33,365 bases of DNA from Candidatus Poribacteria bacterium. Its GTDB lineage: Bacteria; Poribacteria; WGA-4E; WGA-3G. The notes below the pieces were generated by a model. It saw nothing but the letters and a program-made list of their open reading frames with translations, did no database searches and was not told the origin of the DNA. The position numbers were made by a program, and so were the translations under genes. Position 1 is the stretch's first letter; each line of letters opens with the position of its first letter. Location: positions 1 through 33,365 of the forward strand of contig JAPOQK010000021.1 in NCBI GenBank assembly GCA_026710795.1. Reading direction: 5' to 3'. Below, piece by piece: positions 6,113 through 32,252 of the stretch.

Positions 6113-6141
6113 ATATAATAAACCGACCACGGAATTAGTCT

Positions 6142-10950: not shown

Positions 10951-13005
10951 ATGATGCCTGACAAAACATCAGTAATTTATTCACAAGTAGATGTTAATGA
11001 AAGTGATGTAACAACTTGGGAACTTCCTGAAGGTGCTATTGCGCGTTTGGGGCGCGGACGTGAGCCTGATTTCGATTTTTCACCCGATGGACAGTATCTT
11101 GCCATTGGCACATCATTAGGACTCTGGTTGTATGACCTTGCCGAGCTTTCCCCGATAGCACTTTGGGAGATACAACGCGGTATGGTAGGGTGTGTCGCCT
11201 TTTCACCTAATGGAAAATGGATTGCCACCAGCAATTCAGACAATATTTTAAAGGTATTGGATATACAGAATGGCGTGTGCCTAACGAAAGTAGAATCAGA
11301 TGAGTATATTACAGGACTGACCTTTTCGCCTGATAATCAATATATCGCAGCTGCATATTCCCGATCGTCAAAAGTAGAAATCTGGTATGCTGAAACAGGT
11401 GAACCGGTTGTCCAATTCACTGCAGACACTGAAGAAGCATCTTTCTTTAGACCTATTAGTTTTTCACCTGATACTCGATTGATAGTATCTACATGCAGAT
11501 TCAATACCACTGACGAGGGGTATTCTGTAATCGTGTGGAATATGGAAAGTAGAGAACAAATCGCGTGTTTCTCAGCACACACCAAATGGATCTCAACAAT
11601 TTGCTTTTCACCGTGTGGTAAGTTCCTCGTCTCTGGTGGTGAAGATGGCACAGTAAATCTGTGGGATGTTAATACTTGGCAAAAAGTGCAGACATATTCA
11701 GATTATGGTGATGTGTATCGTATCATTCCCTCCTATACACCAGATGGTATTCTACGCGCAGCAATTATCAATTATGACGAATCTGCTCCCGTCACTATCT
11801 CTGTCTGTGACCTTGAAAGTGGTGAGGAAATTTATAACGACCAAGTTTGGGGCAATACTGTTCAATTCTGTGATGCAGATGATTGGGGTAACTTTCTCGT
11901 ATTTTCAAACGGTTCGCAACTTGCTTACGAATGCAGACATGATTTCATCAACGTATGGACACCTGAATATCCATATAAGCGACAGTTTACTCATTCACCT
12001 ATTTCATTTCCTGCATCTACACATTCACCAAAGGCGTTTCCGACATTTGCAGTGTTTACGGATGATGGCAAAACATTAGCAGTAAAACATCATCATGAAG
12101 GTGTTGTGTTATGGGATATAGCAAGTAGACGTTCACGTCCTGCAATAACAGTGGAATCTGCAGGAAAAAACCAGTTTTTATATAAAACTGAAAGTGGTAA
12201 ACTCTATGTTGCAAGTATCAAAGATGATAATGTTATGCTCTGGGAGGTTGATGGAAATGGTATTCCACTAATTGAAGGAACGGAACGCAAATATTGGAGT
12301 GCATTCCCTGCTTTATCACCAACTGGTAAATTATTTGCTTATGCAGATGAAGAAGGTAATATCAAAGTGTGGGATGTAGATAGTGGAAATCAACTCTATG
12401 AACTGAAACATCCACTTGGACAAAGTGACGACGATGATGACGAAGAGGATGATACAATCTGTGATTTGCAATTCAGTTTTGATGGAAAAATACTTGCAAG
12501 TGAATCAGATTATCCGTGCGCGCATGTTATTTCGTGGGACATGGAACGTGGCGAAGAGATTGATAATTCTCTAAGCGATAATGCTGCTACACGCATCCGC
12601 GGAAGACTCGTCTTTAGGCATTTGAAACCAAGATCTCGTGAGGTTGTCCATATATCTCATGATAGGAAGTATTTATCTTCCATCGGAAATAACCCATACT
12701 TGTATGATGTGAAACAGAATGATTACCTTACTCGGTTTTCTCTACCTAAAGGGTTAGAAGATATGTTTTGGGTTGCTGAATTTTCCATGTGTGGAAAATA
12801 TTTTGCAGCTGGGACATGGTGGCATGAAGGTATGGAGAAAATGGTAATTTGTTTATATGAAGTTGAAACCGGAAAACAGATTGCTACATTTAAAGGACAT
12901 TCAACAGATGTACATGCACTTGCCTTCTCTCCAGACAACAAAATATTAGCCAGTACAAGTTATGATGGTACTATCCTGCTATGGGATCTTACACCTTATA
13001 TATAG
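10951..13005 (+). CDS. Sigma-less 14-motif WD40 propeller protein (A family)
   Basis: 684 residues, most like the propeller of the fusion at 3457, not of its direct neighbours. Shared marks include DVTTW-x-(L/I)-x-EGAIARLGRG, GLWLYDL--LSPIALWE, a stretch around YRIIPSYT-DGILRAA, and an acidic loop, here SDDDDDEEDD near residue 492. Fourteen WD motifs run to ILLWDLTPYI at the C-terminus. There is no export signal. AAGGAG at 10940-10945 serves either the ATG at 10951 or the one at 10954. It is 14 bases after the previous gene, so probably the last gene of the operon starting at 6142. The AGTACAAG-free gap after it carries the next ECF promoter. Confidence 0.88.
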   Translation: MMPDKTSVIYSQVDVNESDVTTWELPEGAIARLGRGREPDFDFSPDGQYLAIGTSLGLWLYDLAELSPIALWEIQRGMVGCVAFSPNGKWIATSNSDNILKVLDIQNGVCLTKVESDEYITGLTFSPDNQYIAAAYSRSSKVEIWYAETGEPVVQFTADTEEASFFRPISFSPDTRLIVSTCRFNTTDEGYSVIVWNMESREQIACFSAHTKWISTICFSPCGKFLVSGGEDGTVNLWDVNTWQKVQTYSDYGDVYRIIPSYTPDGILRAAIINYDESAPVTISVCDLESGEEIYNDQVWGNTVQFCDADDWGNFLVFSNGSQLAYECRHDFINVWTPEYPYKRQFTHSPISFPASTHSPKAFPTFAVFTDDGKTLAVKHHHEGVVLWDIASRRSRPAITVESAGKNQFLYKTESGKLYVASIKDDNVMLWEVDGNGIPLIEGTERKYWSAFPALSPTGKLFAYADEEGNIKVWDVDSGNQLYELKHPLGQSDDDDDEEDDTICDLQFSFDGKILASESDYPCAHVISWDMERGEEIDNSLSDNAATRIRGRLVFRHLKPRSREVVHISHDRKYLSSIGNNPYLYDVKQNDYLTRFSLPKGLEDMFWVAEFSMCGKYFAAGTWWHEGMEKMVICLYEVETGKQIATFKGHSTDVHALAFSPDNKILASTSYDGTILLWDLTPYI

Positions 13006-13074: not shown

Positions 13075-13103
13075 TGCAACCTGACCACCTGAAAATCGCG
13101 TCA
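13075..13103 (+). promoter_or_regulatory. ECF-type promoter, type 1 (TGCAACC-N17-CGTCA)
   Basis: TGCAACC (13075-13081) and CGTCA (13099-13103) are 17 bases apart. The preceding bases extend the match to TGACAATCATGCAACC, identical to the sequence at 30144-30159. There are 37 bases between the -10 box and the ATG at 13141, the same as at 3457. Confidence 0.7.
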
Positions 13104-13140: not shown

Positions 13141-15786
13141 ATGAAGAAAAGCGATGCTGAATTGATTGACGAAATCCTGTCAGGCGACGAGGATGCATTT
13201 AGTACCTTAGTGGAAAAATATCAAAAAAGTGTACATGCACTGGTATGGCGAAAAATCGGTGATTTCCATGTCGCAGAGGAAGTTACACAGGATACTTTCC
13301 TACAGGTATACAAGAAGTTACCCACCGTAAAAAACCCAAAACATTTTCCTGGATGGTTGTATGTAATAGCTAACAGACAATGCATTACTTGGCTACGCAA
13401 GAATGATAAACAAACTGAGCAATCCCTTGAAGCCACAAGACATGATACTTTGGAAGAAACTGCGTATGCGTGTTTTGTTTCGGAAAAACGTGAAGAAACA
13501 GAAGTTGAGAGACGACGTGTAGTGGTTGAAAAACTTCTGGAAAAGTTGCCAGAGAGCGAACGTACAGTAGTCATACTCCATTACCTTGGGGAAATGTCCT
13601 GTGATGCAATAGGCAAATTTTTAGGTGTATCTCCAAACACTGTCAAAAGTCGACTCAGGCGTGCGAGAAATCGTTTAAGAGAGAATGAATCACTTATCAT
13701 AAATACGCTCGGAAGTGTTAAATTATCCCCAAACCTATCTGATAATATTGCGAGGGATATTGCCAATGTTAGTCAGACATCTCCATCCGGAACAAAGCCG
13801 TTATTGCCGTTAGCATCTTTAGGGTCATCCTTATTATTGGTTATACTTCTGATTGGCGCGAGTAATCAATACTTGACTCAATTTCAGTTGCCATATAGTT
13901 ATGACGCACAATCAGAAACCACGATTGAAATTGTGGAATCACCATTCATGCTAAATATTATACCAAGACTGGATGTGCAAAATCGGTTAGGAAGAGAAGT
14001 TGATCGTGGGAAAGGTAACAACGATGGTCTACAAGAAGGAAATACATCTATGAAAAATAACCTTGCAAATGATTCTATACATTGGAAATTACCTGAAGGC
14101 GCAAAAGCCCGTCTTGGAAAAGGATGCCTATTTGAAGTTGCGTACTCTCCAGATGGCACACTACTTGCTGCTGCGGGAACGATCGGTATATGGATTTATG
14201 ATGGACGCACCGGTGAAGAACTCAACCTACTTACAGAACACATAGAAAGTGCTTCAGCAGTCGCTTTTAGTCCCGACAACCGACTTTTGGCAAGTAATGG
14301 TGGTGACAAAACTATCCTATTGTGGGATATACAAACTGGACAGCTTAAAACAACTCTTACGGGACATAATAAAATAGCAAATTCGGTTGCCTTTAGTCCT
14401 GATGGAAAAACCCTTGTAAGCGGTGCGAACGATGAAACTATTCGGTTGTGGGATGTAGCAACAGGTGAACTTCGTCTCACCTTTGCTGGACATGCAAATG
14501 ACGTATCTGAAGTGATGTATTCACCAGATGGTAAGATGCTTGTAAGTTTTGGAGGAGATGATATGATTCATCAATGGGATGCACACACCGGAGAATACAT
14601 TCGCTCACTTACTGGACATGAGAGTTATATTCATTCTATAGCATATTCTTCTGACGGCAAAACTATAGCAGCAGGTATTGATGATGGGACAATTCAAATA
14701 TGGGATTCCAACACCGGAAACCTTAAGACAACCTTAGCACATTCAACAAATTCCAATGGTGTTTGGTCGGTCGTATTCAGTCCGAATGGAAAAACTCTGG
14801 TTAGTAACGATTTCGCAGATGATATGATTCGGTTTTGGGATGTTGCTACTGGTGAACGTCTCAAAACCATTAAATGTCCTCCAGATACACCCAGAAATAT
14901 AGTTTTTTCACCAGACGGTAGTTTGTTGGTATATTCAGGTGAAGATGGTACACTTCGTTTTTGTGATGTTGCGACCAATGCTCCGATACATACCATTACA
15001 GGATACCCAGATATGATTTTTGATATGGTGTATTCTCCAGATGGTAGTAAGTTTGTTGCAGTCAGTGCTGGTCCCATCATTCAGATATGGGAAACTCACA
15101 CCAACAAGTTGATAAAAACATACTCTGTAGATGCCAGAAGAATTGATTGTATTGCTTATTCGCCAGATGGTAAAACACTTGCTTGCGGGGGTGTTACAAA
15201 TGCATACACTGGAGTTTGGTTTTTGAATACTGAAACAGGGGAAATTGAACGCGTTTTCAAAGAGCGTAAGGATACTATTGCAGCCGTTGCGTACAGTCCT
15301 GATGGGAAAATAATTGCGAGTGGAAGTGATGATACAGTGAGATTGTGGGATGTCAATACCGGTGAAACCATAAGAATTCTAACTGAGGAGAAGGATATTT
15401 TAGAAATACACTATTCTCCCGACGGGAAGATGCTTGTGAGTAAGAATTATTCAGGAATCCGTGTTTGGGACATAAATACAGGTGAAATCTTAAAAACCTT
15501 ACATTATAAAAACCTTACACCAGAGTTAGAAAAATATTGGGATGTATATTCACCTGATGGACAGCAATATGTTGGTATAGATGTAGTTGATTCAGAGGGT
15601 AAATTAGCGTTTTTCAATGCAGAAACTGGTGATGTGATTCAGAGTTTTGCCGTTGGACATAAAAGAAGTAATTGGGTAGATAATAGGTGGGAAGATGTTG
15701 GGTTATTTAAATATTCACCAGATGGACGCACCGTTGCCACGGCAGGATGGGACAGCACGATCCTTCTATATGATGTTCCGCAGTAA
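13141..15786 (+). CDS. Membrane-anchored ECF sigma (type 1)-WD40 fusion (C family), 13 WD motifs
   Basis: 881 residues. The ECF domain has region 2 with AEEVTQDTFLQVY and GWLYVIAN at 71, and region 4 from about 136 with NTVKSRLRRARNRL. A single hydrophobic helix follows at about 221-243 (LASLGSSLLLVILLIGAS), then a linker and W-x-LPEGAKARLGKG, then WD motifs. With sigma inside, the propeller should face outward. Only 13 WD motifs are found, against 14 in the near-copy at 17840: one blade around 15480-15640 is missing or fused, and the protein is 30 residues shorter. I place the start at 13141, not at the in-frame ATG at 13129. GAGG then lies 6 bases upstream, and both this spacing and the 37-base distance to the promoter match gene 3457. 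Codon 304 is an internal start. The secreted propeller gene at 15841 follows after 54 bases. Confidence 0.88.
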   Translation: MKKSDAELIDEILSGDEDAFSTLVEKYQKSVHALVWRKIGDFHVAEEVTQDTFLQVYKKLPTVKNPKHFPGWLYVIANRQCITWLRKNDKQTEQSLEATRHDTLEETAYACFVSEKREETEVERRRVVVEKLLEKLPESERTVVILHYLGEMSCDAIGKFLGVSPNTVKSRLRRARNRLRENESLIINTLGSVKLSPNLSDNIARDIANVSQTSPSGTKPLLPLASLGSSLLLVILLIGASNQYLTQFQLPYSYDAQSETTIEIVESPFMLNIIPRLDVQNRLGREVDRGKGNNDGLQEGNTSMKNNLANDSIHWKLPEGAKARLGKGCLFEVAYSPDGTLLAAAGTIGIWIYDGRTGEELNLLTEHIESASAVAFSPDNRLLASNGGDKTILLWDIQTGQLKTTLTGHNKIANSVAFSPDGKTLVSGANDETIRLWDVATGELRLTFAGHANDVSEVMYSPDGKMLVSFGGDDMIHQWDAHTGEYIRSLTGHESYIHSIAYSSDGKTIAAGIDDGTIQIWDSNTGNLKTTLAHSTNSNGVWSVVFSPNGKTLVSNDFADDMIRFWDVATGERLKTIKCPPDTPRNIVFSPDGSLLVYSGEDGTLRFCDVATNAPIHTITGYPDMIFDMVYSPDGSKFVAVSAGPIIQIWETHTNKLIKTYSVDARRIDCIAYSPDGKTLACGGVTNAYTGVWFLNTETGEIERVFKERKDTIAAVAYSPDGKIIASGSDDTVRLWDVNTGETIRILTEEKDILEIHYSPDGKMLVSKNYSGIRVWDINTGEILKTLHYKNLTPELEKYWDVYSPDGQQYVGIDVVDSEGKLAFFNAETGDVIQSFAVGHKRSNWVDNRWEDVGLFKYSPDGRTVATAGWDSTILLYDVPQ
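14036..14052 (+). promoter_or_regulatory. Internal ribosome site and start at the linker/propeller joint
   Basis: AAGGA (14036-14040) is 9 bases before an in-frame ATG (14050), located after the membrane helix. A product from here would be a soluble, sigma-less propeller beginning MKNNLANDSIHWKLPEG. Confidence 0.4.
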
Positions 15787-15840
15787 GTGTTAATGCATAA
15801 TATAGACAACAGATACAATCTTCAACGGAGTTAATATTAG

Positions 15841-17766
15841 ATGAAAATAGTAAGTCTCTTACTAACTATATTGCCACTGATTTCAACGTTATTTCTTTTC
15901 ACGTTTTTGTCCGCGACTGCTTTATCACAAGAACATACACACTTTGGCTTGCTACCGAATACAAAAGCGCGTTTTGGAAAAGGCAGAATACATCAGGTAA
16001 AGTATTTTCCAGATGGCAACCGTTTGGCTGTTGCTACTTCTATTGGCGTATGGATTTATGATGTTCAGACAGGTGAACCGCTTGACCTCCTTACTGAACA
16101 TACAGCACCTGTAAAGTCGATAGAATTCAGTCTAGATGGTGCAACTCTTGCATCAGGTAGTGAGGACAAAACCATCCGACTATGGGACACAAGCACAGGT
16201 AAACTAAAATCTACATGTCTTGAACATGAAGATGAAGTCGTATTATTGGCATTTTGTCCTTCTGGGAAGTCCCTCGCCAGTACCAGTGGAAGTTCGGATA
16301 TCCAAATTTGGGACGTTCAAACCGGTAATGTTTTAAAGACCTTTGAAGCAGGAGTCACACCTATATATTCAATTACCTTTTCTCTGGATGGTACAATGCT
16401 CCTCATCATCGGTAATACTGAAGACTACGACTCTCGCATTGAGTACTGGGATACACAAACCGGTGAACATATAAAAAATGTTCTTATAGAAAGTAAATTT
16501 AAGGCTGCAGCGATGTCACCAAACTGTAAAATACTGGCTTGCGTGGATTATTATCCGCTCCAGTTTTACGATGTGGAGACAGGTAAACACCTGAGGAGTG
16601 TAGAAAAGCGTTTAGGAGAGTTAAATTCGATCCAGTTTTCATCTGATAGACGGACTCTTATCACTGGTGGTCGTTGGGGTACGGTTGATATTTGGGACGT
16701 GAATACAGCAAAAAATCTGAGAAGCATGCTACATAAAAAAGATGATGATGTTGTATCTGTTACTTATTCACCCGATGAACAGACAATCGCAAGTGGAGGA
16801 GAAGATGGCACAGTTAAGTTTTGGGATGTAGCCACTGGAAAACTCACAAAAACCATCACGGGACACATATCATCTGAAATTTACTCTGCTGCATATTCAC
16901 CTGATGACCATACACTTGCTTGTGGCAGCGAGGACAAATTGTTCACATGGAATGCTCGGACTGGTGAATTGTTGAAAACTTCTACTGATCCTAACCGTGA
17001 AGTTTATTCTATAAAATATTCTTCTGATGGAAAAATAATTTCTACTGTTGGTCTTTCTACACGTTCCCATATAACAAATTCTCATAAAGCGCGTCTGTGG
17101 AATGTGAAAACCGGACGGTTCCTCGGCAGTTTTGCCGGACATTTTTCCATAGCCTTTTCACCCGATGGCACTATTCTTGCCACCGGAGGTCGCTTCAGTC
17201 AGGTCTGTTTATGGGAAATTCGTAGAGGTGAATTATATCTGATTGGTGACCGCTTAGCAACATTTACAGAACATACCGAAAACGTAACTTCAGTGGCATT
17301 TTCACCTGATGGAAAAGTGCTTGCAAGTGGAAGCCAAGACAAGACAATTCAAATCTGGGACATGGACACACGCACGCATCTTAAAACATTCACAGGACAT
17401 GATGAGGGTGTCACTGATGTGGTGTTTTCCCCTGATGGAACCACACTTGCAAGCGGAAGTGAGGATGGTACGATCCGTTTGTGGAACGTTAATTCCGACG
17501 GCTTGGTGCTACCACCCATTGAAGGTGCAGGACATATAACTTCCCTGGATTATTCTCCTGATGGTGGTATACTTGCCAGTGGAACTGAGGACGGAAATGC
17601 TATCCACATTTGGGAAGCAAAGACAGGAGAAAAACTTCATACATTTACCGGTCATACGCAACGTGTAAATGATGTGGTATTTTCAACGGATGGCACAACA
17701 TTAGTAAGTGTTAGTGATGATGGGACAGTACTCTTGTGGGATCTATCAACATTAGCAAGTGATTAA
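15841..17766 (+). CDS. Exported 14-motif WD40 propeller (D family)
   Basis: 641 residues with a clear signal peptide: MKIVS, a long hydrophobic core, and a likely cut after ATALS (S29|Q30). No lipobox is present, so it should be a soluble protein outside the inner membrane. The mature part starts with a FG-LP-x-x-x-KARFGKG motif and carries 14 WD motifs ending VLLWDL, which fits two 7-bladed propellers. A distinctive LWEIRRGELYLIGDRLATF segment in blade 10 is shared with the genes at 20641 and 25223 and marks the D family. GGAG lies 10 bases before the ATG. It follows the membrane-anchored sigma-propeller by 54 bases and is probably co-transcribed. Both propellers should then sit in the same outer compartment, so direct contact is plausible (inference). 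Confidence 0.88.
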   Translation: MKIVSLLLTILPLISTLFLFTFLSATALSQEHTHFGLLPNTKARFGKGRIHQVKYFPDGNRLAVATSIGVWIYDVQTGEPLDLLTEHTAPVKSIEFSLDGATLASGSEDKTIRLWDTSTGKLKSTCLEHEDEVVLLAFCPSGKSLASTSGSSDIQIWDVQTGNVLKTFEAGVTPIYSITFSLDGTMLLIIGNTEDYDSRIEYWDTQTGEHIKNVLIESKFKAAAMSPNCKILACVDYYPLQFYDVETGKHLRSVEKRLGELNSIQFSSDRRTLITGGRWGTVDIWDVNTAKNLRSMLHKKDDDVVSVTYSPDEQTIASGGEDGTVKFWDVATGKLTKTITGHISSEIYSAAYSPDDHTLACGSEDKLFTWNARTGELLKTSTDPNREVYSIKYSSDGKIISTVGLSTRSHITNSHKARLWNVKTGRFLGSFAGHFSIAFSPDGTILATGGRFSQVCLWEIRRGELYLIGDRLATFTEHTENVTSVAFSPDGKVLASGSQDKTIQIWDMDTRTHLKTFTGHDEGVTDVVFSPDGTTLASGSEDGTIRLWNVNSDGLVLPPIEGAGHITSLDYSPDGGILASGTEDGNAIHIWEAKTGEKLHTFTGHTQRVNDVVFSTDGTTLVSVSDDGTVLLWDLSTLASD

Positions 17767-17773
17767 TAATTAT

Positions 17774-17820
17774 TTTGTATACTGAGTTCCATTTGTGTAC
17801 CTCAATGAAGTGTATACAAA
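17774..17820 (+). promoter_or_regulatory. Inverted repeat TTTGTATAC between the duplicated units
   Basis: TTTGTATAC (17774-17782) is the exact reverse complement of GTATACAAA (17812-17820), with 29 bases between. It takes the place where the first unit has its ECF promoter. It may be an operator. A terminator is unlikely because the stem is AT-rich and there is no T run. Confidence 0.3.
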
Positions 17821-17839
17821 TGTTATTATGAGGTATTTA

Positions 17840-20575
17840 ATGAAGAGAAGCGATGCTGAATTGATTGACGAAATTCTGTCAGGAGACGAGGATGCATTTA
17901 GTGCGTTAGTGGAAAAATATGAAAAAAGTGTACATGCACTGGCATGGAGAAAAATCGGAGATTTCCATGTCGCAGAGGAAGTCACACAGGATACTTTCCT
18001 ACAAGTATATAAGAAGTTACCCACAATTAAAAACCCAAAACATTTTCCTGGATGGTTGTATGTAATAGCTAACAGACAATGTATTACTTGGCTGCGTAAG
18101 AATGATAAACACGCAATACAATCGCTTGAAGCAACAAGTCAAGATACTTTAGAAGAAACTGCGTATGCATGTTTTGTTTCGGAGAAACGTGAAGAAACAG
18201 AAGTTGAGAGACGACGTGTAGTGGTTGAGAATCTTCTGGAAAAGTTACCAGAGAGCGAACGTACAGTAGTAATACTCCATTACCTTGGAGAAATGTCCTG
18301 CGATGCAATAGGTAAATTTTTAGGTGTATCTCCAAACACTGTTAAAAGTCGACTCAGGCGTGCGCGAAATCGTTTAAGAGAGAATGAATCACTTATCATA
18401 AATACGCTCGGAAGTGTTAAATTATCCCCAAACTTATCTGAAAGCATCATGAGGGAGATCGCGAATGTTAGTCAGACATCTTCTACCGGAACAAAGCCGT
18501 TATTGCCGTTAGCATCTTTAGGATCATCCTTATTATTGGTTATACTTCTGATTGGCGCAAGTAATCAATACTTGACTCATTTTCAGTTGCCTTATAGTTA
18601 TGACGCACCCCAAGAAACCACGATTGAAATTGTGGAATCACCATTCATGCTAAACAACACGCGAAAACTCGATGTGCAAAATCGGTTAGGGAGAGAAGTT
18701 GATCGTGGGAAAAGTAACAATTATGGTCTACAAGAAGGAAATACATCAATGCAAAACGACTTTGTTCAAGATTCTACGAAATGGAAATTACCTGAGGGGG
18801 CAAAAGCACGTTTGGGAAAAGGACATATATTTGATATGGCATACTCTCCAGATGGTACACAGCTTGCTGCTGCGGGAACGATCGGTATATGGTTATATGA
18901 TACACTCACTGGTGAGGAATACAATTTGCTTTATGATAACATGGACAGTGTTTCGACTGTAGCCTTCAGTCACGACAGCAAATATCTCGCAAGCGATGGA
19001 ATAGATAACACAATTATAATTTGGGATCCGAGTTCTGGACAACATATCGATACTTTCAAAGGACATCAAGACTACGTTAATTCGGTTGCGTTTAGTCCGG
19101 ACGGGAAAACACTCGTGAGTGGTGGGGGCGATGAAACAGTCCGTTTATGGGATGTAGCAACTGGTCAACTTCGTCTCACCTTTGCTGGACATGCTGATGG
19201 TGTTTCCGATGTGGTGTTTTCACCCGATGGTGAAATGCTTGCCAGTCATGGAAACAGAGATGGAAATCTTTATCTTTGGGATGCACACACCGGGGAATTC
19301 CTACACTCGCTAACAGGTCATGATGGAGATGTTAATTGCATTACCTTTTCACCTGATGGTAAAACTTTAGCAAGTGGTGGAGAAGACGGGACAATAAGAT
19401 TGTGGAAAACATATACCGGGCAAATGATGAAAACCATAGAAGTCACATCTGGACTTCACGGTATCAAGTCAATCGTTTTCGTTCCAAATGAAAATATAAT
19501 CATTAATACTAACTATGGAGATGATAAGATAAAGTTCTGGGATTGTGCCTCAAATGAACTTCTTTATACAATAAATAGTCCACCAGAGACAACCTATCAT
19601 ATGGTTGTCTCACCGGATGGAATGACACTTGTAAATGCAGGAAGTGACGGGACAATCCAGTTTTGGGATGTTGCTACTTTAACATCAATACGAACTCTTC
19701 ATGGTTATGCGGAGATGTTTCGTGATATGTCGTATTCACCTGATGGAAACATACTCGCTACAGTGAGCACTGGTCCAAGTCTTCGTTTATGGGATCCAAA
19801 TTCAGGTAGACTGAAAACTACTTACTATCCAGGTTCTGTTAGTATAACTTCCATTGACTATGCTCCTGATGGAGTAACACTCGCATGTGCTCCTGGACCA
19901 AATGAATATGACACGGTTTATCTCTTTAATACTGAAACAGGTGAACAGGGACGTGTTTTCAATGGTGATTATGATGGCTTTGAATCCGTAGCCATAAGTC
20001 CTATAGGAAACATACTTGCAGGTGGAGACAATAGTGGGAACATCTATTTATGGGATGTGTTTACCGGTGAAATCATAAGAATACTCAAATGGCACGGTGA
20101 TATTGTAAGGACTTTATCTTTCTCCCCTGATGGAAAATTGCTTGTGGGTACCAGTGATTCAGGCACTCGTTTTTGGGATATAGTCACAGGTGAAACATTC
20201 AAAGACTTTGCATCTGTTTATATTACACTATCCCCAAGTTGGGAAAAGTTTGTTTGTGTGGATTGGGGAAAAAATGGACTTATGCAATTTTGGAACATGG
20301 GGGAAGATGAACCAATCAAAACTATCACAACAGAAGAAAGAACATATTTTCAAACTTATTCACCAGATGGATCTGAAATTGTTGGGATCGGTCCTGGGAA
20401 TAATATTACATTTTGGGATGCAGATTCACTTAAGGTAATTCACAGTATTGCAGATGGACATAAGAAAAGTGCGAAGTCAGAAGGTGTTTGGTTTGTAAGA
20501 TATTCACCAGATGGTGGATCCGTTGCCACCGCAGGTTGGGATAGCACTGTTCTTCTATGGGATGTTCCGCAATAA
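17840..20575 (+). CDS. Membrane-anchored ECF sigma (type 1)-WD40 fusion (C family), 14 WD motifs
   Basis: 911 residues, a tandem paralog of the gene at 13141 with the same order: ECF region 2 (GWLYVIAN at 71), region 4 from about 136, one membrane helix at about 221-243, a linker, W-x-LPEGAKARLGKG near 315, then 14 WD motifs ending VLLWDVPQ. Unlike the first copy the blade set is complete, with LMQFWNM and ITFWDA both present near the end. The start at 17840 has GAGG six bases upstream, as in the other type 1 genes; an in-frame ATG at 17828 is less likely. No TGCAACC/CGTCA pair lies in the 73-base gap, so transcription probably reads through from the upstream unit or uses another promoter. 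An internal start lies at codon 304. Confidence 0.9.
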   Translation: MKRSDAELIDEILSGDEDAFSALVEKYEKSVHALAWRKIGDFHVAEEVTQDTFLQVYKKLPTIKNPKHFPGWLYVIANRQCITWLRKNDKHAIQSLEATSQDTLEETAYACFVSEKREETEVERRRVVVENLLEKLPESERTVVILHYLGEMSCDAIGKFLGVSPNTVKSRLRRARNRLRENESLIINTLGSVKLSPNLSESIMREIANVSQTSSTGTKPLLPLASLGSSLLLVILLIGASNQYLTHFQLPYSYDAPQETTIEIVESPFMLNNTRKLDVQNRLGREVDRGKSNNYGLQEGNTSMQNDFVQDSTKWKLPEGAKARLGKGHIFDMAYSPDGTQLAAAGTIGIWLYDTLTGEEYNLLYDNMDSVSTVAFSHDSKYLASDGIDNTIIIWDPSSGQHIDTFKGHQDYVNSVAFSPDGKTLVSGGGDETVRLWDVATGQLRLTFAGHADGVSDVVFSPDGEMLASHGNRDGNLYLWDAHTGEFLHSLTGHDGDVNCITFSPDGKTLASGGEDGTIRLWKTYTGQMMKTIEVTSGLHGIKSIVFVPNENIIINTNYGDDKIKFWDCASNELLYTINSPPETTYHMVVSPDGMTLVNAGSDGTIQFWDVATLTSIRTLHGYAEMFRDMSYSPDGNILATVSTGPSLRLWDPNSGRLKTTYYPGSVSITSIDYAPDGVTLACAPGPNEYDTVYLFNTETGEQGRVFNGDYDGFESVAISPIGNILAGGDNSGNIYLWDVFTGEIIRILKWHGDIVRTLSFSPDGKLLVGTSDSGTRFWDIVTGETFKDFASVYITLSPSWEKFVCVDWGKNGLMQFWNMGEDEPIKTITTEERTYFQTYSPDGSEIVGIGPGNNITFWDADSLKVIHSIADGHKKSAKSEGVWFVRYSPDGGSVATAGWDSTVLLWDVPQ
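18735..18751 (+). promoter_or_regulatory. Internal ribosome site and start at the linker/propeller joint
   Basis: AAGGA (18735-18739) is 9 bases before an in-frame ATG (18749), conserved with the first copy. The encoded tail begins MQNDFVQDSTKWKLPEG. Confidence 0.4.
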
Positions 20576-20640
20576 TCAGTTATTAATTTCGTTTCCTAAT
20601 TATCATCATCAATACAACTATAATAGGAGTCAATATTAGG

Positions 20641-22584
20641 ATGAAAATACTTGGCACCGTAGCATACATTTTGCCCTTATTTACTATCCCCTTAATAATT
20701 ACTTTCATAACAACAGCCGCTTTCTCTCAAAGCCATATTCACTTAGGATTACCGGATGGTGCTAAAGCACGTTTTGGAAAAGGGAGTATAAACTTGGTAA
20801 AATATTTTCCTGACGGTATACGTTTTGCTGTTGCGACATCCATTGGAACATGGATATATAATGTCAATACTGGTGAGGTAGTTAATTTACTGTTAGGTCA
20901 CACAGCACTAGTTAAGACTATATCATTCAGTCCAGATGGCAAGATAATAGCAACAGGTAGTAAGGACAGGACTATAAAACTATGGGATACAAGCAATGGT
21001 AATCTAATTTCGACATGTATTGGACATAAAGAGGAAATTAATTTAATAGCATTTAGTCCTGATGGAAAGAGTATCGCAAGTACAAGTGCAGACTGGAAAA
21101 TTCGGATTTGGAACGTACAATCCGGAAACACTATAACGACTATTTCTGAATGTGGGGCAGAAGACATGTGTGCAATTGTCTATTTACCCGACGGTGATAT
21201 GCTGCTTACTATAAGGAATGACGATAGGGACGAGTCATATATTGAGTATTGGAACTCTCAAACGGGTGAATTTATAGACTATGTTCTTATAGAGACATCT
21301 TTTGAAACTGCAGCTATTTCACCCGATTGTAAAATTCTTGCTGGTACAGGAAAATATCCACTTCGGTTTTGGGATTTAAAGACAGGTAAATTGTTGAAAA
21401 ATAATGTTAAAGAAAAAGTTAGTCCTGAGTATATGGAGTTTTCAGTGGATGGTAGCAAACTCGTTACAGGAGAAAGATGGGAATCTATATGTGTATGGGA
21501 TACAGTAACAGGAAAATTGATAAATAGTATGTCGCATGGTAAAACAAACAATTCTGTAACATATTCACCGGATGGGAAAACTATTGTAGGTGAAATCGGT
21601 GATGGTACAATTAATGTATGGGATTCTGTTACAGGTAAACTTTTCAACACAATCAGTGGACATAGCAATTCAAGTTTTTACGCTGTTGCTATATCTCCAG
21701 ATGGAAATATGCTTTCCACTGGTGGTGAATCCGAAGTTCAGTTTTGGAATACACTGACAGGTGAAATCCAGCAAACCATCAAAGAACCGCGTTGCGATGT
21801 CCATTCTCTAAGCTATTCATCGGATGGGAAATTTCTTGCTACAGCGGGAACATCCATTAAAGCGCGTTTGTGGGATGCACAAACAGGAAGGTTCCTTGGA
21901 GGTTTTAGTCAACATAAAAAAAACAGTGATTACAGACATCAAGATAATGTTCCTTCAGTTGCATTTTCACCCGATGGTAGTATACTTGCAACCGGAGGAA
22001 CAGATAACCAGGTCAATTTGTGGGAGATTCGCACTGGTGAACAGTACCTTATTGGGGAACGTTTAGCTACATTCTCTGAACATACGGAAGCGGTCACTTC
22101 AGTTGCATTTTCACCTGACGGAAAAATGCTTGCGAGTGGAAGCCAAGACAAGACAATTCAAATCTGGAACACGGACACACGCACGCATCTTAAAACATTC
22201 ACAGGACATGATGAGGGTGTCACCGATGTTGTGTTTTCCCCTGATGGAACCACGCTCGCAAGCGGCAGTGAGGATGGTACAATCTGTTTGTGGATTACTG
22301 ATACAGACGGCTTGGTACTACCACCCATTGAAGGTGCAGGACATGTTACTTCTCTGGATTATTCTCCTGATGGCAATATACTTATCAGTGGAACTGAGGA
22401 CGGAAATGCTATCCACATTTGGGAAGCAAAGACAGGAGATAAACTTCATACATTTACCGGTCATACGCAACGTGTAAATGATGTGGTATTTTCATCGGAT
22501 GGCACAACATTAGCAAGTGTTAGTAATGATGGGACACTTCTCTTGTGGGATCTATCTAACACTGATTTTTTACTCAAAAAGTAA
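20641..22584 (+). CDS. Exported 14-motif WD40 propeller (D family)
   Basis: 647 residues, paralog of the gene at 15841. The signal peptide (MKILGTVAYILPLF and onward) is predicted to be cut after AAFS (S29|Q30), the same position as in the first copy even though the hydrophobic core has diverged. The mature protein begins HIHLGLPDGAKARFGKG and holds 14 WD motifs. It includes the D-family LWEIRTGEQYLIGERLATF segment, with an extra lysine-rich loop (QHKKNSDYRHQDN) before it. The last 160 or so residues are nearly identical to those of the first copy, while the middle differs much more. AGGAG lies 11 bases before the ATG, a rather long gap; an ATT two codons upstream would be better spaced. It follows its sigma-propeller partner by 65 bases. 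Confidence 0.88.
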   Translation: MKILGTVAYILPLFTIPLIITFITTAAFSQSHIHLGLPDGAKARFGKGSINLVKYFPDGIRFAVATSIGTWIYNVNTGEVVNLLLGHTALVKTISFSPDGKIIATGSKDRTIKLWDTSNGNLISTCIGHKEEINLIAFSPDGKSIASTSADWKIRIWNVQSGNTITTISECGAEDMCAIVYLPDGDMLLTIRNDDRDESYIEYWNSQTGEFIDYVLIETSFETAAISPDCKILAGTGKYPLRFWDLKTGKLLKNNVKEKVSPEYMEFSVDGSKLVTGERWESICVWDTVTGKLINSMSHGKTNNSVTYSPDGKTIVGEIGDGTINVWDSVTGKLFNTISGHSNSSFYAVAISPDGNMLSTGGESEVQFWNTLTGEIQQTIKEPRCDVHSLSYSSDGKFLATAGTSIKARLWDAQTGRFLGGFSQHKKNSDYRHQDNVPSVAFSPDGSILATGGTDNQVNLWEIRTGEQYLIGERLATFSEHTEAVTSVAFSPDGKMLASGSQDKTIQIWNTDTRTHLKTFTGHDEGVTDVVFSPDGTTLASGSEDGTICLWITDTDGLVLPPIEGAGHVTSLDYSPDGNILISGTEDGNAIHIWEAKTGDKLHTFTGHTQRVNDVVFSSDGTTLASVSNDGTLLLWDLSNTDFLLKK

Positions 22585-22601
22585 AATAATCGCATTTTTT
22601 A

Positions 22602-22627
22602 AACCATTTCCCTAAAAACTCTCCTCT
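22602..22627 (+). promoter_or_regulatory. ECF-type promoter, type 2 (AACC-N17-CCTCT)
   Basis: AACC (22602-22605) and CCTCT (22623-22627) are 17 bases apart. The TTTAAACC, CCTAA and CTCCTCT context matches the site before 6142, at nearly the same distance to the start codon (30 against 29 bases), although the two propeller genes behind them belong to different families. Confidence 0.5.
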
Positions 22628-22657
22628 TTATATTGAAACCTAATTTGAAATTGGTCT

Positions 22658-25186
22658 ATGGACACCGATTTGATAACTCACAGTGACCTTCAAAACGACG
22701 CGTTGATACGTCTCGTACAAAACCGGGATGAGACTGCCTTTGTAGAACTCATATCACGTCATACGCATCGTATTTGGGGTATAATTGTTGCAAAATCCAG
22801 ACAACACCGAGATGCAGAAGAGATTCTAATGAATGTGTGGATGGCAGTTTGGGAGAATATTGAAGGTCTAAGGAAAATTGAAAGTTTTGATACTTGGTTA
22901 CGCCGAATAACATTAAACGCATGTAGAAGGTACTACAGTTCACATCGTCGTTCACGTGATGTAATCCTGCAGAGACATGAGGAATTATTTGAATATATTG
23001 ACAGAGCAGCACCTTCACGTTATCGCGAAATACAATTACGTCAAGATGCCAGAGAAGCGGTGAATCATCTTCCACAAAGGGTACGTTCCATTGCAAAATT
23101 GTATTATATTGAATCATGGAATGTCAACGATATTGCTGATCAATTAAACATTGCAATAGGCACAGTCAAAACAAGATTAGCAGAAATACGTACACTCCTA
23201 CGAAAAGAATTTGGAGTTGAACATCTACAAGGGGATGTAATGCAGGTAGAGTCTGTAAAAACGCAACAACAAGTGAACTGCTACAAAAGTTATCTACCTA
23301 CAGGCGCGCTTGCGCGATTTGGAAAAGGTTACATTTTTGATTTTGCCTATTCACCCGACGGAACGAGACTTGCCGTTGGATCTACAATTGGTATCTGGTT
23401 ATACGGTACAGAAACTGGTGAAGAGATAAACTTTCTAAAGGGTCATAGTTATTTTGTGAGTGATGTTGTCTTCAGTCCAAATGGAAAAACACTTGCGAGT
23501 TTAAGTAGTTGGAATGACTATACAATTCGTTTATGGGATGTGCCAACAGGTGAATGTAAAGCAGTACTTTCAGGACATACACAGGATGTACATTCTCTTG
23601 TTTACAGTCCTGATGGAAAGAGGATTGCAAGTGAGAGTGATGATGGAACTATTCGATTATGGAACGGTATCACTGGTAAACCAATAGCAACTTGGGAAAA
23701 TCATACGAATTTAATCAAGATATTAGCATTTAATCCAGATGGTAGGGCACTTGCAGGTGGAGGCAGTGATGAAGTTATACGAATTTGGGATGTTGTAACT
23801 GGAGAACTTCAGTTAACTTTTGCAGCACACGCGAATAGCATAGATTCCCTAAAGTATTCTCCCGATGGGAAAATACTCGCAAGTCGGGGAGGCGATAACA
23901 ATGTGTGTTTATGGGATGCACATACCGGTGAGTTTTTACGCCTATTCAAGACGAATGCAAAAACTGTCGATTCAATTGACTTTTCAACAGATTGGAAGAC
24001 GCTTGCGGTTGTTGACAACGATAAAACTCTACATCTGTGGAATACCCATACTGGTAAAAAAATAATAACTATCAATTTGAATAGAAAGTTTGGTTCAGTT
24101 CAGTTTTCTCCAGATGGGTTATATTTTGCATGTGATGTGGATAGTGATGGAGTTGTTTTTCTATTTGATACCGTTAGTGGGAACCTAATTCATGAACTTA
24201 AAATTGAAGGAAGTAGAGAGAGGGTCAATTTTTATCAATTTTCACCTGATGGTGAGTTACTTGCAGCATCCAACGGTTTTGAGATATTTTTCTGGAATGT
24301 AAAAACTGCAGAACATTTAAAGACAATCACAGGATATTCTGAAGTAATAGGTGCTTTAATATATTCTCCAATTGGAAATACAGTAGCGAGTGTAGATAGA
24401 ATGGTACGGATTTGGGATATAAATACACAGAAACTACTAAAGACAATTGCACCAGAAAGTTCAGTTAGATCAATTGTATATTCTCCATGTGGAGAGACAC
24501 TCGCTTGCGGAACTCCCGATAACACTATTTTACTATTGCATGTTGGAACGTGGGAACATTATAAAACATTAGAAGGGCACACCAAGGGTATTTCCTGTGT
24601 AATTTACAGTCCTGATGGACAAACTCTTGCAAGTGGGAGTTGGGACAAGTCAATCAGATTGTGGAATCCAAATTCTGGTGAACTTCAAAATACAATCATT
24701 GGACATACAGATGGAATTCATGATCTGGTTTTTTCACCAAATGGTAGAACACTTGCAAGTGGTGGCTATGATGGAACAATTCGGTTTTGGGATGTTGCAA
24801 CAGGGGAACTGATTAGAACAATTGATACAAAGTCAGACAATAGCATAGATTCTGTTGCATATTCTCCTGATGGAAAGATACTTGCATGCACAGGTGATAA
24901 CGGTGCTGATGGAATCCGTTTTTGGGATGTTAAAACCGGCGAACTTTTGAAAACTATTGAAGTTGAAGCAGGTGCGTTTTCAGTAGTTTATTCACCTGAT
25001 GGCAGCACATTTGCAAGTGGTGGGATGGGTGAACTCTCTGTTTGGGATGCTAAAACTTATGAAATCCTAAAAACTTTCACAGGACATATTGATCCTGTTT
25101 ATTCAGTAGCCTACTCACCAGATGGTAAGACACTCGCAAGCGGTTGTAGAGATAGTACTGTTATTATATGGGATTTAAGAAAATAA
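22658..25186 (+). CDS. ECF sigma factor (type 2) fused to 15-motif WD40 propeller (C-like), no membrane helix
   Basis: 842 residues. The sigma domain is type 2 like that at 6142 (LVQNRDETAFVELISRHT; AWENIEGL-type region 2; region 4 from about 138 with GTVKTRLAEIRTLL). The propeller resembles the C family at 13141 and 17840: LPTGALARFGKGYIFDFAYSP, then IGIWLYGTETGEEINFL. The gene thus joins one sigma type to the other group's propeller. The helix and linker found in the C genes are absent, so the protein should be cytoplasmic. I count 15 WD motifs, one more than the usual 14. Codon 195 is an internal ATG after AAGGGG. No good ribosome site precedes the main start. The partner at 25223 follows by 36 bases. 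Confidence 0.9.
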   Translation: MDTDLITHSDLQNDALIRLVQNRDETAFVELISRHTHRIWGIIVAKSRQHRDAEEILMNVWMAVWENIEGLRKIESFDTWLRRITLNACRRYYSSHRRSRDVILQRHEELFEYIDRAAPSRYREIQLRQDAREAVNHLPQRVRSIAKLYYIESWNVNDIADQLNIAIGTVKTRLAEIRTLLRKEFGVEHLQGDVMQVESVKTQQQVNCYKSYLPTGALARFGKGYIFDFAYSPDGTRLAVGSTIGIWLYGTETGEEINFLKGHSYFVSDVVFSPNGKTLASLSSWNDYTIRLWDVPTGECKAVLSGHTQDVHSLVYSPDGKRIASESDDGTIRLWNGITGKPIATWENHTNLIKILAFNPDGRALAGGGSDEVIRIWDVVTGELQLTFAAHANSIDSLKYSPDGKILASRGGDNNVCLWDAHTGEFLRLFKTNAKTVDSIDFSTDWKTLAVVDNDKTLHLWNTHTGKKIITINLNRKFGSVQFSPDGLYFACDVDSDGVVFLFDTVSGNLIHELKIEGSRERVNFYQFSPDGELLAASNGFEIFFWNVKTAEHLKTITGYSEVIGALIYSPIGNTVASVDRMVRIWDINTQKLLKTIAPESSVRSIVYSPCGETLACGTPDNTILLLHVGTWEHYKTLEGHTKGISCVIYSPDGQTLASGSWDKSIRLWNPNSGELQNTIIGHTDGIHDLVFSPNGRTLASGGYDGTIRFWDVATGELIRTIDTKSDNSIDSVAYSPDGKILACTGDNGADGIRFWDVKTGELLKTIEVEAGAFSVVYSPDGSTFASGGMGELSVWDAKTYEILKTFTGHIDPVYSVAYSPDGKTLASGCRDSTVIIWDLRK
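23229..23242 (+). promoter_or_regulatory. Internal ribosome site and start at the sigma/propeller joint
   Basis: AAGGGG (23229-23234) is 5 bases before an in-frame ATG (23240), codon 195, the same codon number as in the gene at 6142. Confidence 0.35.
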
Positions 25187-25222
25187 AGGTTATTCATATA
25201 TTGAGAGCTATTAGACGAGATA

Positions 25223-27115
25223 ATGCATATACCACAACCCGACACACAATGGTCCCTTCCACCTTTTGCTAAAGTTCGAATCGGCAAAGGCGGAATAAAT
25301 GCAATAAAGTATTTTCCAGACGGTACCCGTCTTGCTGTTGCGGGTACGATAGGAATCTGGATTTACGATGTGGAAACATGTGAACCAATTGAATTGATTA
25401 CTGGACATACTGGACCAATCAATTCATTGGTATTCAGTCCTGATGGTAATGTGTTTGCAACTGCAAGTGATGATCATACCGCACAAATATGGGATGCTAA
25501 CACAGGAAAAAACAAAGGTAGTTTCATTGAACATACAGATGTTATAAACGCAGTGGACATCAGTCCTGATGGTGCAAGAATAGTTACAGCAAGTGATGAC
25601 AAGACCATTGGACTTTGGAACCTACATTCTGGAGAATCGATAGAAATGCTTCATGGACATACGGAGAAGGTCTTGTCAGCAGTTTTTTCTCCCGATGGTA
25701 CTGTGATTGCCAGTAGTGAAGAATTTGGAAAAGAAGGTGGAATTCGAATTTGGGATGCACACACAGGTAAATTTCTAAAATCCTATACTGAAGATACCGG
25801 CTGGGTAGAATATGTAGTATATAGTCCAGACGGTAAGTCACTCATCAGTCGAGATTCTTGTCGAGATATTAATTTTTGGGAAGCAGACACAGGAAAAAAA
25901 CTAAAACCGTGTGAAACAGATGATTGGATGGATAAATATAGTCCTGTAGCATTTTCTCCAGATGGACGCACATTTACGATTGGAGTACGTGATGGTCATG
26001 TCTGTCTTTGGGATATCAAAACCAGGAGATTGCTTAAAGAGTTTGAAATTGATGAAAATTTAGATTCTTCTCCTTCTTCTGTAGCATTTTCTCCAGATGG
26101 AAAAACTATTGCATCTGCGAGTGAAGATGGAACGATTCGCTTTTGGGATATAAAATCTGGGCATATCTATAAAACCATTGTTGGACACACACCGCATTTG
26201 TCCTCAACACAAAAAGCGGAAGCATCATATCAGACAGATAAACGCTTCCTATCTGTCGCATATTCACCTGATAACAGAACTATTGTGAATTCATACGATA
26301 CTGCACTACATATACGTAATTTAGATACATGCGAAATACGAACAGTAATTACCGGACCACGTGGCAATGTTCGAGAAATTACCTTTTCAAATGATGGGAA
26401 AATACTTGCGATTGTTGATGAAAAATCTGTGCGTTTGTGGGATGCACATCATGGAAGATTCCTTGGAACAATCGTAGGACATAGTAATGGTGTTACTTCT
26501 GTAGCGTTTTCACCTGATGGCACAGTGCTTGCTGCTGGCGGTCATGACAATACAATATATTTATGGGAAGTCAGGGAAGATGGACTCTATATTATTGGCG
26601 ATCTAATTCAAACACTTACTGGACATACAGATATTGTATCCTCTGTGATATTTTCACCTGATGGACATATCCTTGCGAGTGGAAGTTGTGATAATACAAT
26701 CCGATTATGGGATGTACAAACTGGAAAAACAAAGAAAAGCCTTACTGGACATTTAGGTATTGTAAACGCAGTTGATTATTCATCAGATGGTAGTCTACTT
26801 GTAAGTGGTAGTCGTGATGGAACGATTCGGTTGTGGAACAGTAATAACGGCAAACTGTTAAAAACCTTAAATGGACCATCACAGAACATCGCATCCGTTG
26901 TATTTTTTCCTAACGATAGATTTATTGCTGGTTGTACTAATGGTCTAATTTATTTGTGGGATGTACAAACTGGAAAACTAATTGACACCTATAAAGGTCA
27001 TGCTGATGTTATAAATAGTCTTGCTGTTTCACAAGATTGCCAGACACTTGTCAGTGGTAGTTATGATGGCACAGTCCTTTTGTGGGATCTTACAACCCTA
27101 ATACCAAATAATTAG
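25223..27115 (+). CDS. 14-motif WD40 propeller, D family without signal peptide
   Basis: 630 residues. It belongs to the D family by its opening (W-x-LP-x-x-AKVRIGKGGINAIKYFPDG) and by the LWEVREDGLYIIGDLIQTL segment in blade 10, yet it starts MHIPQPDTQWSLP with no signal peptide. No better upstream start adds one: the gap to the previous gene is only 36 bases and is not hydrophobic when read in frame. It should therefore stay in the cytoplasm, like its sigma-bearing partner at 22658, which likewise lacks a membrane helix. Fourteen WD motifs end with VLLWDLTTL. The ribosome site is weak (ACGAGA close to the ATG), so coupling to the upstream gene is possible. Confidence 0.88.
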   Translation: MHIPQPDTQWSLPPFAKVRIGKGGINAIKYFPDGTRLAVAGTIGIWIYDVETCEPIELITGHTGPINSLVFSPDGNVFATASDDHTAQIWDANTGKNKGSFIEHTDVINAVDISPDGARIVTASDDKTIGLWNLHSGESIEMLHGHTEKVLSAVFSPDGTVIASSEEFGKEGGIRIWDAHTGKFLKSYTEDTGWVEYVVYSPDGKSLISRDSCRDINFWEADTGKKLKPCETDDWMDKYSPVAFSPDGRTFTIGVRDGHVCLWDIKTRRLLKEFEIDENLDSSPSSVAFSPDGKTIASASEDGTIRFWDIKSGHIYKTIVGHTPHLSSTQKAEASYQTDKRFLSVAYSPDNRTIVNSYDTALHIRNLDTCEIRTVITGPRGNVREITFSNDGKILAIVDEKSVRLWDAHHGRFLGTIVGHSNGVTSVAFSPDGTVLAAGGHDNTIYLWEVREDGLYIIGDLIQTLTGHTDIVSSVIFSPDGHILASGSCDNTIRLWDVQTGKTKKSLTGHLGIVNAVDYSSDGSLLVSGSRDGTIRLWNSNNGKLLKTLNGPSQNIASVVFFPNDRFIAGCTNGLIYLWDVQTGKLIDTYKGHADVINSLAVSQDCQTLVSGSYDGTVLLWDLTTLIPNN

Positions 27116-27259: not shown

Positions 27260-27964
27260 ATGAAAACTAAATCCCTTATCAACATGATATTTATCTTATT
27301 GGTATTCCTTGGTTGTAATATACCAATTCTAAGATTCACTCCAAAGGAATTACCTGGTGTGAAAGTAATTACCCCTCCTGTCATAGATGGTAAATTAGAT
27401 GATGATGCATGGAAGAAAGCACCGCGTGGAATTGATTTCACTGACAGAAACGCAAACCATGAATTAGCAAAAGATCAAACCATGATTATGTTGGTATATA
27501 CCGATTTAGCAATTTATGTTGCATGTTATCTATATGATGAAAATCCTGATCAATTAGCAGCATTTGTTACAGAGGATCAGATACGTCCCCAACAGGATGA
27601 CTGGGTTTCTTTCACAATAGATCCATTTCATACACACCAATTCCGAGACAGGATATTTTTTATGACAAATCCGAATGGAATCAAGTATGTAAGTCATCCT
27701 CCCCCAGATATTCCTTTAGAAGATGTGCCACTTATGTGGGATGTTGCTACAGACATTGTTGAGGATGGATGGATCATTGAAATGGTAATCCCTTGGAACA
27801 TGTTAGACTACCCACAGACAGAAGAACCGATTGATATTGGCATCAATTTTGACCGAGGACATCCAAGAACTGGAGAAAATTCATGGTGGTCTGTAGTTCC
27901 ATCAAGTGAAGATAATAGGCCGGATGGACACTGGTTGGATGTCTTACCCCTACAAAAAAAATAG
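27260..27964 (+). CDS. CBM9/DOMON-like carbohydrate-binding lipoprotein
   Basis: 234 residues. A short hydrophobic leader ends in VFLGC (C19), which resembles a lipobox although the -3 residue is Phe, so a lipid-anchored envelope protein is likely but not certain. The rest is a single CBM9-like beta-sandwich: PPVIDGKLDDDAWKKAP near 40 is the typical opening, followed by TIDPFHTHQFRD, VEDGWIIEMVIPW and a final WWSVVP-type strand. Larger relatives carry an outer-membrane barrel domain after this module; here the protein ends directly after it. GGGAG lies 7 bases before the ATG. It is the only non-WD40 gene inside the propeller cluster, and a link to sugar sensing is only a guess. Confidence 0.8.
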   Translation: MKTKSLINMIFILLVFLGCNIPILRFTPKELPGVKVITPPVIDGKLDDDAWKKAPRGIDFTDRNANHELAKDQTMIMLVYTDLAIYVACYLYDENPDQLAAFVTEDQIRPQQDDWVSFTIDPFHTHQFRDRIFFMTNPNGIKYVSHPPPDIPLEDVPLMWDVATDIVEDGWIIEMVIPWNMLDYPQTEEPIDIGINFDRGHPRTGENSWWSVVPSSEDNRPDGHWLDVLPLQKK

Positions 27965-30152: not shown

Positions 30153-30181
30153 TGCAACCAACTTACAATATTAACGCGTCA
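30153..30181 (+). promoter_or_regulatory. ECF-type promoter, type 1 (TGCAACC-N17-CGTCA)
   Basis: TGCAACC (30153-30159) and CGTCA (30177-30181) are 17 bases apart. The upstream extension TGACAATCA is identical to that at 13066-13074. Here the promoter precedes a gene without a sigma domain, which suggests it is a target in trans of the type 1 fusions. Confidence 0.65.
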
Positions 30182-32147: not shown

Positions 32148-32252
32148 CCATTCAAATTGGATAACAATAATTAATTCTTAAAGTGAATTGTGTTTACAAA
32201 TACTGTTATTTTATGTAGGAACAGACCACTGTTTAGATATATAAGGAGATAC

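Follow-up and report, generated by a model that had tools for sequence, protein, structure and literature searches.

Paired WD40 propellers and their predicted compartments in a sigma factor locus of Candidatus Poribacteria

Introduction

Sigma factors of the extracytoplasmic function (ECF) type that carry WD40 tails have been described before. The passages on ECF57 in PMC8999054 describe ECF sigma factors whose C-terminal extension is WD40-like and which have a conserved cysteine in each of sigma2 and sigma4; interaction with other proteins has been suggested as their means of regulation. WD40-tailed ECF sigma factors of the planctomycete Tuwongella immobilis (Planctomycetes) are reported from detergent-soluble fractions, according to the section of PMC8567305 that treats them. 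ECF sigma factors fused to a membrane anti-sigma factor (IutY/ECF243, ECF48, ECF52 and ECF53) form another known arrangement, with a transmembrane portion and, in some, an extracytoplasmic domain (summarized in PMC8999054). Many WD40 proteins are noted in Poribacteria in PMC3909097. Here we analyse a 33,365-nucleotide stretch of DNA from a Candidatus Poribacteria bacterium (GCA_026710795.1, contig JAPOQK010000021.1; hereafter the window), which holds two paired double-propeller families: first C, borne here on fusions of an ECF sigma domain to WD40 propellers, and then D, its partner. Judged from sequence, C and D probably make up a sensor in two parts by which the attached sigma factor is controlled, with one predicted periplasm-facing and one predicted cytoplasmic version.

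The window is an entire contig, C110, one of 114 that make up a genome of 4.70 Mb, and the nearest named records are Candidatus Poribacteria metagenome-assembled genomes. Ten WD40-protein genes, named here by their first position, lie on the same (+) strand between 3457 and 27115. Five of the ten begin with an ECF-type sigma domain, either sigma-A (3457, 13141 and 17840) or sigma-B (6142 and 22658). The 13141 fusion shares 79% identity with record P0123, from such a Poribacteria genome, and the best segment of the 22658 fusion shares 80%. Pfam recognizes sigma-70 regions 2 and 4 only, in 3457 and in relatives of both sigma types; the sigma domains of the other window fusions are called by a profile built from the window itself.

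Results and discussion

Predicted compartments of sigma fusions and partners

Helices and signal peptides were called by hydropathy together with checks of n-region charge and of AxA sites. The 13141 gene (13141–15786, 881 aa; sigma-A, transmembrane helix and WD40 propellers) and the 17840 gene (17840–20575, 911 aa) are membrane versions of C, each with a helix between sigma domain and propellers whose best 19-residue Kyte-Doolittle mean is 2.34 (residues 221–239 of 13141, at 13801–13857; 18500–18556 in 17840). Their D partners, 15841 (15841–17766, 641 aa) and 20641 (20641–22584, 647 aa), are secreted versions that begin with predicted signal peptides (12-residue means of 2.80 and 2.30; at 15841–15930 in the former). 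The third pair is cytoplasmic. Here 22658 (22658–25186, 842 aa; sigma-B and WD40 propellers) joins its two parts by a linker of only ~16 residues without a helix, and 25223 (25223–27115, 630 aa) starts with MHIPQPDTQWS, directly followed by the propeller, and has no signal peptide. Helices are absent, by the 19-residue measure, from the sigma-WD40 fusions 3457 (3457–6063; 0.45) and 6142 (6142–8844; 0.17), and signal peptides, by the 12-residue measure, from the sigma-less WD40 proteins 8864 (8864–10936; 0.63) and 10951 (10951–13005; −0.04). A preliminary description of this DNA had placed a helix and a signal peptide together in the first two pairs and neither of them in the third pair or in the couples 6142/8864 and 3457/10951; hydropathy bears out each of these assignments. 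To see whether a sigma match extending over a helix had masked it in fusions called helix-free, the stretch from residue 150 to the propeller was scored, and in none of 68 does a 19-residue mean reach 1.3.

The agreement within the window carries limited weight by itself. 13141 and 17840 are tandem relatives (93% identity in sigma, 50% in the propellers), so the three C-D pairs are not three independent cases. The nearest window propeller of 10951 is that of 3457 (59%), and the nearest of 8864 is that of 6142 (47%); both proteins may be sigma-less copies of the propellers of their own fusions with an inherited address, and the compartment agreement of these two couples may therefore be mere inheritance. 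Identities among the window propellers are 39–62% for D with D, 33–50% for C with C and 30–36% for C with D. The model of 25223 is a tandem double propeller (predicted local distance difference test, pLDDT, 86.8; predicted template modelling score 0.85), with structural matches that include 2ymu, ranked first, and 1nr0; 2ymu is also its best sequence match.

C-D pairs in related genomes

Our sample of the phylum comprises 84 genomes, 57 of which hold sigma-B relatives that pass E 1e-25. Within the own genome 43/58 sigma-A matches lie at E 1.1e-47 or lower, 34/43 of them with a helix by threshold. Neighbourhoods were taken from 26 regions in the own genome and from 131 distinct ones in relatives, 127 of the latter being analysed, with genes called mechanically. 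In a FastTree analysis of 333 propellers, C and D resolve as two clades of 61 each, with supports of 0.999 and 0.983; 13141, 17840 and 22658 belong to C, and 15841, 20641 and 25223 to D. Adjacent genes in the order C then D make up 51 rows, 42 of which have both members at full length and were kept. The nine dropped rows are six pieces of C (282–438 aa, lacking the N-terminus and followed by a D with signal peptide; two are cut by the end of the fetched region), two fragment rows of G035:C7 and one 322 aa fragment, G047:C16. At face value, the six C-piece rows would be mixed.

The predicted compartments agree in all 42 complete pairs, and the many mixed C-D pairs that the preliminary description had named as contrary evidence were sought among the relatives without a complete one being found. 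The pairs comprise 11 in which a sigma-A C with helix precedes a D with signal peptide, 11 in which a sigma-B C without helix precedes a D without signal peptide, and 20 in which a sigma-less C and its D both have signal peptides (for example G029:C1, G044:C52, G034:C212 and G081:C1b). Outside the 42, inspection of G042:C79 adds a further concordant pair, a sigma-A fusion with helix and a D with signal peptide that the gene caller had missed. The signal peptides, 31 on D and 20 on C, are without exception basic in the n-region and equipped with an AxA-like site, and the charges flanking the helix favour an inside position for sigma in 9/11 paired membrane fusions, by small margins. C and D are closely spaced, overlapping by 19 nt in 11/42 pairs. 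Inside a genome, D stays with its own C: the C and D distance matrices correlate at 0.934, a value reached by 0/2000 permutations of partners inside genomes, whose mean is 0.589 and maximum 0.907.

Could the cytoplasmic D proteins owe their lack of a signal peptide to wrong start codons or pseudogenes? Start sites are indeed mechanical, and a stop falls inside the aligned span of two cytoplasmic D matches, G037:C38 and G045:C1. Against this, all 11 have only 11–17 residues before the conserved start of the propeller, without a hydrophobic stretch; the ATG of 25223, 36 nt past the end of 22658, has no start codon ahead of it in its open frame; and the 25223-like pairs of nine genomes, own included, agree. 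Such an artefact is scarcely credible as the cause.

D could alternatively serve as a decoy or as a buffer for ligand: being a propeller without sigma, it would compete for the ligand of C and set a threshold without touching C. The 30–36% identity and common WD40 architecture of C and D in the window would suit such a role, as would the resemblance of 8864 and 10951 to sigma-less copies of 6142 and 3457. We nevertheless regard it as improbable, given that C and D are separate, well-supported clades kept adjacent even in the 20/42 pairs that have no sigma to buffer.

Two switches of compartment and the limits of the count

Two compartment changes are needed (INDEPENDENCE) on the IQ-TREE tree of C, and likewise on the tree of D. 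One sets the G037/G045 pairs apart within the 13141-like clade; the other divides the 22658-like clade from its membrane relatives. The approximately unbiased (AU) test rejects a single clade for the 11 cytoplasmic rows (p 1.3e-45 for C and 2.1e-63 for D) and a single clade for the 11 sigma-A rows (p 3.4e-35 and 3.0e-52). On the C tree the N-terminal module of C changes five times and the compartment no more than twice; the address of D matches only those module changes that alter compartment. Sigma type, promoter, helix with the juxtamembrane block described below, and partner signal peptide change together. Same-side prediction in 42/42 pairs, even across two lineages that appear to have switched, makes it likely that C and D are one sensor.

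Inheritance of the operon could give much the same picture, with C and D as independent sensors of the same compartment that are duplicated and passed on as one transcription unit while having no effect on one another. The compartments are no more than two switches apart, the nearest C and the nearest D from another genome share an operon in 21/42 cases, and 3457/10951 and 6142/8864 resemble duplicates, all as this explanation would have it. Linkage does not, however, force what happened at both switches, where C and D were altered together through different address signals in different genes. Cross-pair neighbours in the same clusters also disagree: rows in the order D then C, which join neighbouring pairs and serve as a control, are mixed in 9/20 cases (one of the 11 agreeing rows is a fragment row), so shared neighbourhood is insufficient for agreement. 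Inheritance without mutual action is, in our judgement, rather unlikely.

The two-part sensor has to be set against a series of observations that weigh against it or narrow its reach. With two compartment changes on the trees, the independent sample is two, not 42; a sign test cannot reach 0.05 because there are only two independent switches, and operon co-inheritance explains much of the 42/42 count. The reading drawn from same-side pairing in the preliminary description, that each partner works on the propeller of its own fusion, is partly supported; the couples 3457/10951 and 6142/8864 add little to it. Nor is the partner obligatory. The gene caller pairs 22 of 27 sigma-bearing C fusions and inspection adds one; of the remainder, two are followed by another C fusion, one lies at a contig end and one has no D. 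More broadly, 113/158 sigma-WD40 fusions are without a scoreable downstream WD40 partner. D occurs beside a sigma-less C in 20/42 pairs and therefore needs no adjoining sigma; a C-D pair without its own sigma must then have another use or serve a sigma elsewhere. It is the trees that separate the two families: by identity, 22658 is as close to its partner 25223 (35–36%) as to 13141 (33–36%). The compartment calls are hydropathy-based, with the charge and AxA checks added. Finally, the model of the 13141 fusion (mean pLDDT 70.2) is good in the propellers but of low quality across sigma, helix and linker, with residues 205–314 below 50, and it was left unused for sigma and linker, where it is too uncertain.

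The same-side rule does not extend to every couple. Outside C-D there are 23 other downstream neighbours, 21 of full length, among which 14 have neither helix nor signal peptide, three have both, and four (G046:C8, G071:C92, G037:C98 and G031:C88) join a helix-free fusion to a neighbour with signal peptide. With 4/21 mixed, which also counts against the two-part sensor, a rule for all couples was rejected. The 'signal peptide' of G031:C88 looks like what remains of a broken fusion, its helix with the juxtamembrane block. Two short neighbours were left out of the 21, one of 375 aa that agrees and a 199 aa fragment that disagrees. In the first region set, with 154 sigma-WD40 fusions, the downstream WD40 neighbour agrees in 40/45 scoreable cases (helix and signal peptide 15, helix only 1, signal peptide only 4, neither 25; Fisher p 1.6e-7) and the directly upstream neighbour in only 18/45 (p 0.23), p-values that ignore relatedness. 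Treating all downstream neighbours as a single sample was dropped in favour of C-D pairs and trees, as it mixes C-D with unrelated couples and ignores relatedness.

Sigma head, helix and juxtamembrane block

A helix follows sigma in 121/148 sigma-A proteins, 89 with WD40 and 32 with other ectodomains. Beyond it lies a conserved stretch, FQQPYSLDAQSE-TIEIVDAPIVLNI-SKPDVQNRVG, in which Q and Y are present in 120/121. The block in 13141 (13882–13992; FQxPYSxDAxSExTIEIVxxP...QNRxG) is predicted to lie on the outer side of the membrane. One or other of two motifs from the near half of the block occurs in 119/121 sigma-A proteins with a helix, in 0/27 without one and in 1/50 sigma-B proteins. The far end of the block stands directly after sigma in three helix-free sigma-A fusions (G047:C64, G050:C407 and G075:C99). 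The block could be a shared signalling or cleavage segment. An HxxxCxxC zinc motif between sigma and helix was found in 0/121. Cys81 in region 2 of sigma-A is present in 149/152 sequences and Cys153 in region 4 in 101/152; sigma-B has a single Cys column, in 52/52, and no other column above 30% Cys.

Sigma heads also occur on other tails. Besides the WD40 type, Pfam analysis of six sigma fusions identifies a Sortilin/BNR propeller, a C-type lectin and a peptidase M16. Sigma-A proteins with a helix, many of ~1000 aa, form tandem arrays on contigs C70, C104, C68 and C105 of the own genome (G000; regions L062, L070, L066, L067 and L074). Of the array proteins scanned, three have Sortilin/BNR propellers, one a C-type lectin and one a peptidase M16: one sigma head with many sensor types. 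Sigma-B is found in a single open frame of 1394–1442 aa together with FtsZ (GTPase and C-terminal domain), PHP and DNA polymerase III alpha, in the own genome (G000:C41:31688-35872, which is L085:5689-9873, minus strand) and in three relatives (L215:4353-8660, L216:3851-8179 and L217:6811-11082). The FtsZ part is absent from a fourth relative of 1104 aa (L126:4403-7717), and many further relatives have sigma-B frames of 1349–1450 aa, known by length only. The own genome has, in addition, a separate FtsZ (446 aa frame) and two other polymerase III alpha frames. A sigma-B-type promoter precedes the own copy and the 1104 aa relative.

Predicted promoters of the two sigma types

Most sigma-A WD40 fusions are preceded by a predicted promoter of the form TGCAACC-CGCGTCA, within an upstream consensus CAATyATGCAACC...AAATCGCGTCACTAATTA. 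CGTC ends 35–51 nt before the sigma start in 61/84 sigma-A sites, and TGCA-N20-CGTC occurs in 41/93 distinct upstreams of helix-bearing sigma-A genes (no dyad exceeds 9 in 10 shuffles). A position weight matrix (PWM) score of 14 or more is reached by 95/109 sigma-A WD40 fusions, 15/39 other sigma-A proteins and 0/48 sigma-B genes, and by 1/67 D, 0/41 sigma-less C, 9/115 other sigma-less WD40 and 11/738 other genes; the matrix is partly circular because it was trained on the same sites. Across the whole own genome the exact pattern occurs 14 times, 13 of them within ~135 nt before sigma-A genes, and the reversed control once. In the window, exact matches precede 3457 (3391–3419; PWM 48.0) and 13141 (13075–13103; PWM 45.1).

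The sigma-B form is TTTAAACC-CCTCTATA, also given as TTTTTTAAACC...CCTCTATA. AAAC-N19-CTCT is present in 33/38 distinct sigma-B upstreams (at most 8 in shuffles). The pattern has four matches in the own genome, against one for the reversed control; two of the four are the sites predicted by pattern match and in the upstream-region listing before 6142 (6083–6115) and 22658 (22598–22630). It matches in 54/58 genomes of the family, with 153 matches against 30 for the reversed pattern.

The sigma-A matrix finds no match at the window genes 15841, 17840, 20641, 25223, 8864 and 10951, which fits read-through from an upstream fusion; 17840 is predicted to be read from the 13141 promoter. A promoter score in only 1/67 D upstreams fits co-transcription of D from C. 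From the location of these sites, each sigma would read its own promoter type.

A model for the two versions of a proposed sensor

Action of the partner on the fused propeller remains our best reading. Sigma-A of the membrane version would lie at the inner face on a tether of a single helix, and the C propeller would be outside, next to the exported D. A signal received by C and D would pass to the juxtamembrane block and free or activate sigma-A through cleavage or a change of shape, cleavage in the block being possible, not proven. In the cytoplasmic version, sigma-B takes the place of the head made of sigma-A, helix and juxtamembrane block, D lacks its signal peptide, and an internal signal would be sensed. 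Each sigma would boost its own operon through its own promoter type. The sigma-A promoter lies mainly before sigma-A genes, and the loop is therefore probably autoregulatory. Contact between C and D, topology, the match of sigma to promoter and autoregulation are what we infer here.

A wider history may be proposed more tentatively, as something we would not quite bet on: a portable two-protein propeller sensor moved across the membrane at least twice through a swap of the whole head cassette (promoter, sigma type, helix and juxtamembrane block), the partner gained or lost its export signal on each occasion, and a single kind of sensor thereby came to serve either side of the membrane by way of two sigma factors, each driving mainly its own genes.

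Other features of the window

The fourteenth exact sigma-A match (30153–30181, +; PWM 32.9) precedes 30258 (30258–31190, +), a solo WD40 protein of 310 aa and the only sigma-less gene behind such a match (1/14). This gene is a candidate reporter or output of the system. Genes of 310 aa akin to it in G039, G041 and G036 also score with the sigma-A matrix. The stretch 27260–27964, past the C-D cluster and ahead of the solo WD40 genes, encodes a putative lipoprotein-like secreted protein with no Pfam match. A weak match to type II secretion protein C, below cut-off, adjoins an ordinary stand-alone ECF sigma gene (31668–32147 and 32190–32882). An Rfam scan of the window gave no matches.

Comparison with known systems

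To our knowledge, tandem WD40 double propellers such as 2ymu and 1nr0, the latter a C. elegans Aip1 homologue, have no link to a sigma factor or a partner gene; the model of 25223 resembles them in its two consecutive propellers. The ECF-anti-sigma fusions are similar to 13141 and 17840 in having a transmembrane helix after sigma, and differ in that the zinc motif is absent here (0/121) and the ectodomain is a double propeller with a separate partner. Membership in the proteolysis-activated group of such fusions by zinc motif was rejected on that count.

ECF57, as described in PMC8999054, shares with the window fusions an ECF sigma followed by a C-terminal WD40 part. Its two cysteines may correspond to the near-invariant region 2 Cys and the frequent region 4 Cys of sigma-A. 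Sigma-B differs in having no second Cys. The partner propeller, compartment switching, juxtamembrane block and dedicated promoter found here are not mentioned in the passages of PMC8999054 on ECF57, where no mechanism is established for WD40-tailed ECF sigma factors. The Tuwongella immobilis proteins likewise match by description as ECF sigma factors with WD40 repeats, and the relevant section of PMC8567305 mentions neither partner genes nor address switching. Neither pairing with a partner nor compartment switching, nor these promoters, is described in the titles and abstract openings surveyed.

The partner, the same-side pairing rule, the juxtamembrane block and a promoter for each sigma type reduce the question of function to a few direct tests. 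If the two-part sensor is real, a sensor can be re-addressed between compartments provided its partner follows. ECF sigma factors with a WD40 tail are already known; the partner and its re-addressing are new.

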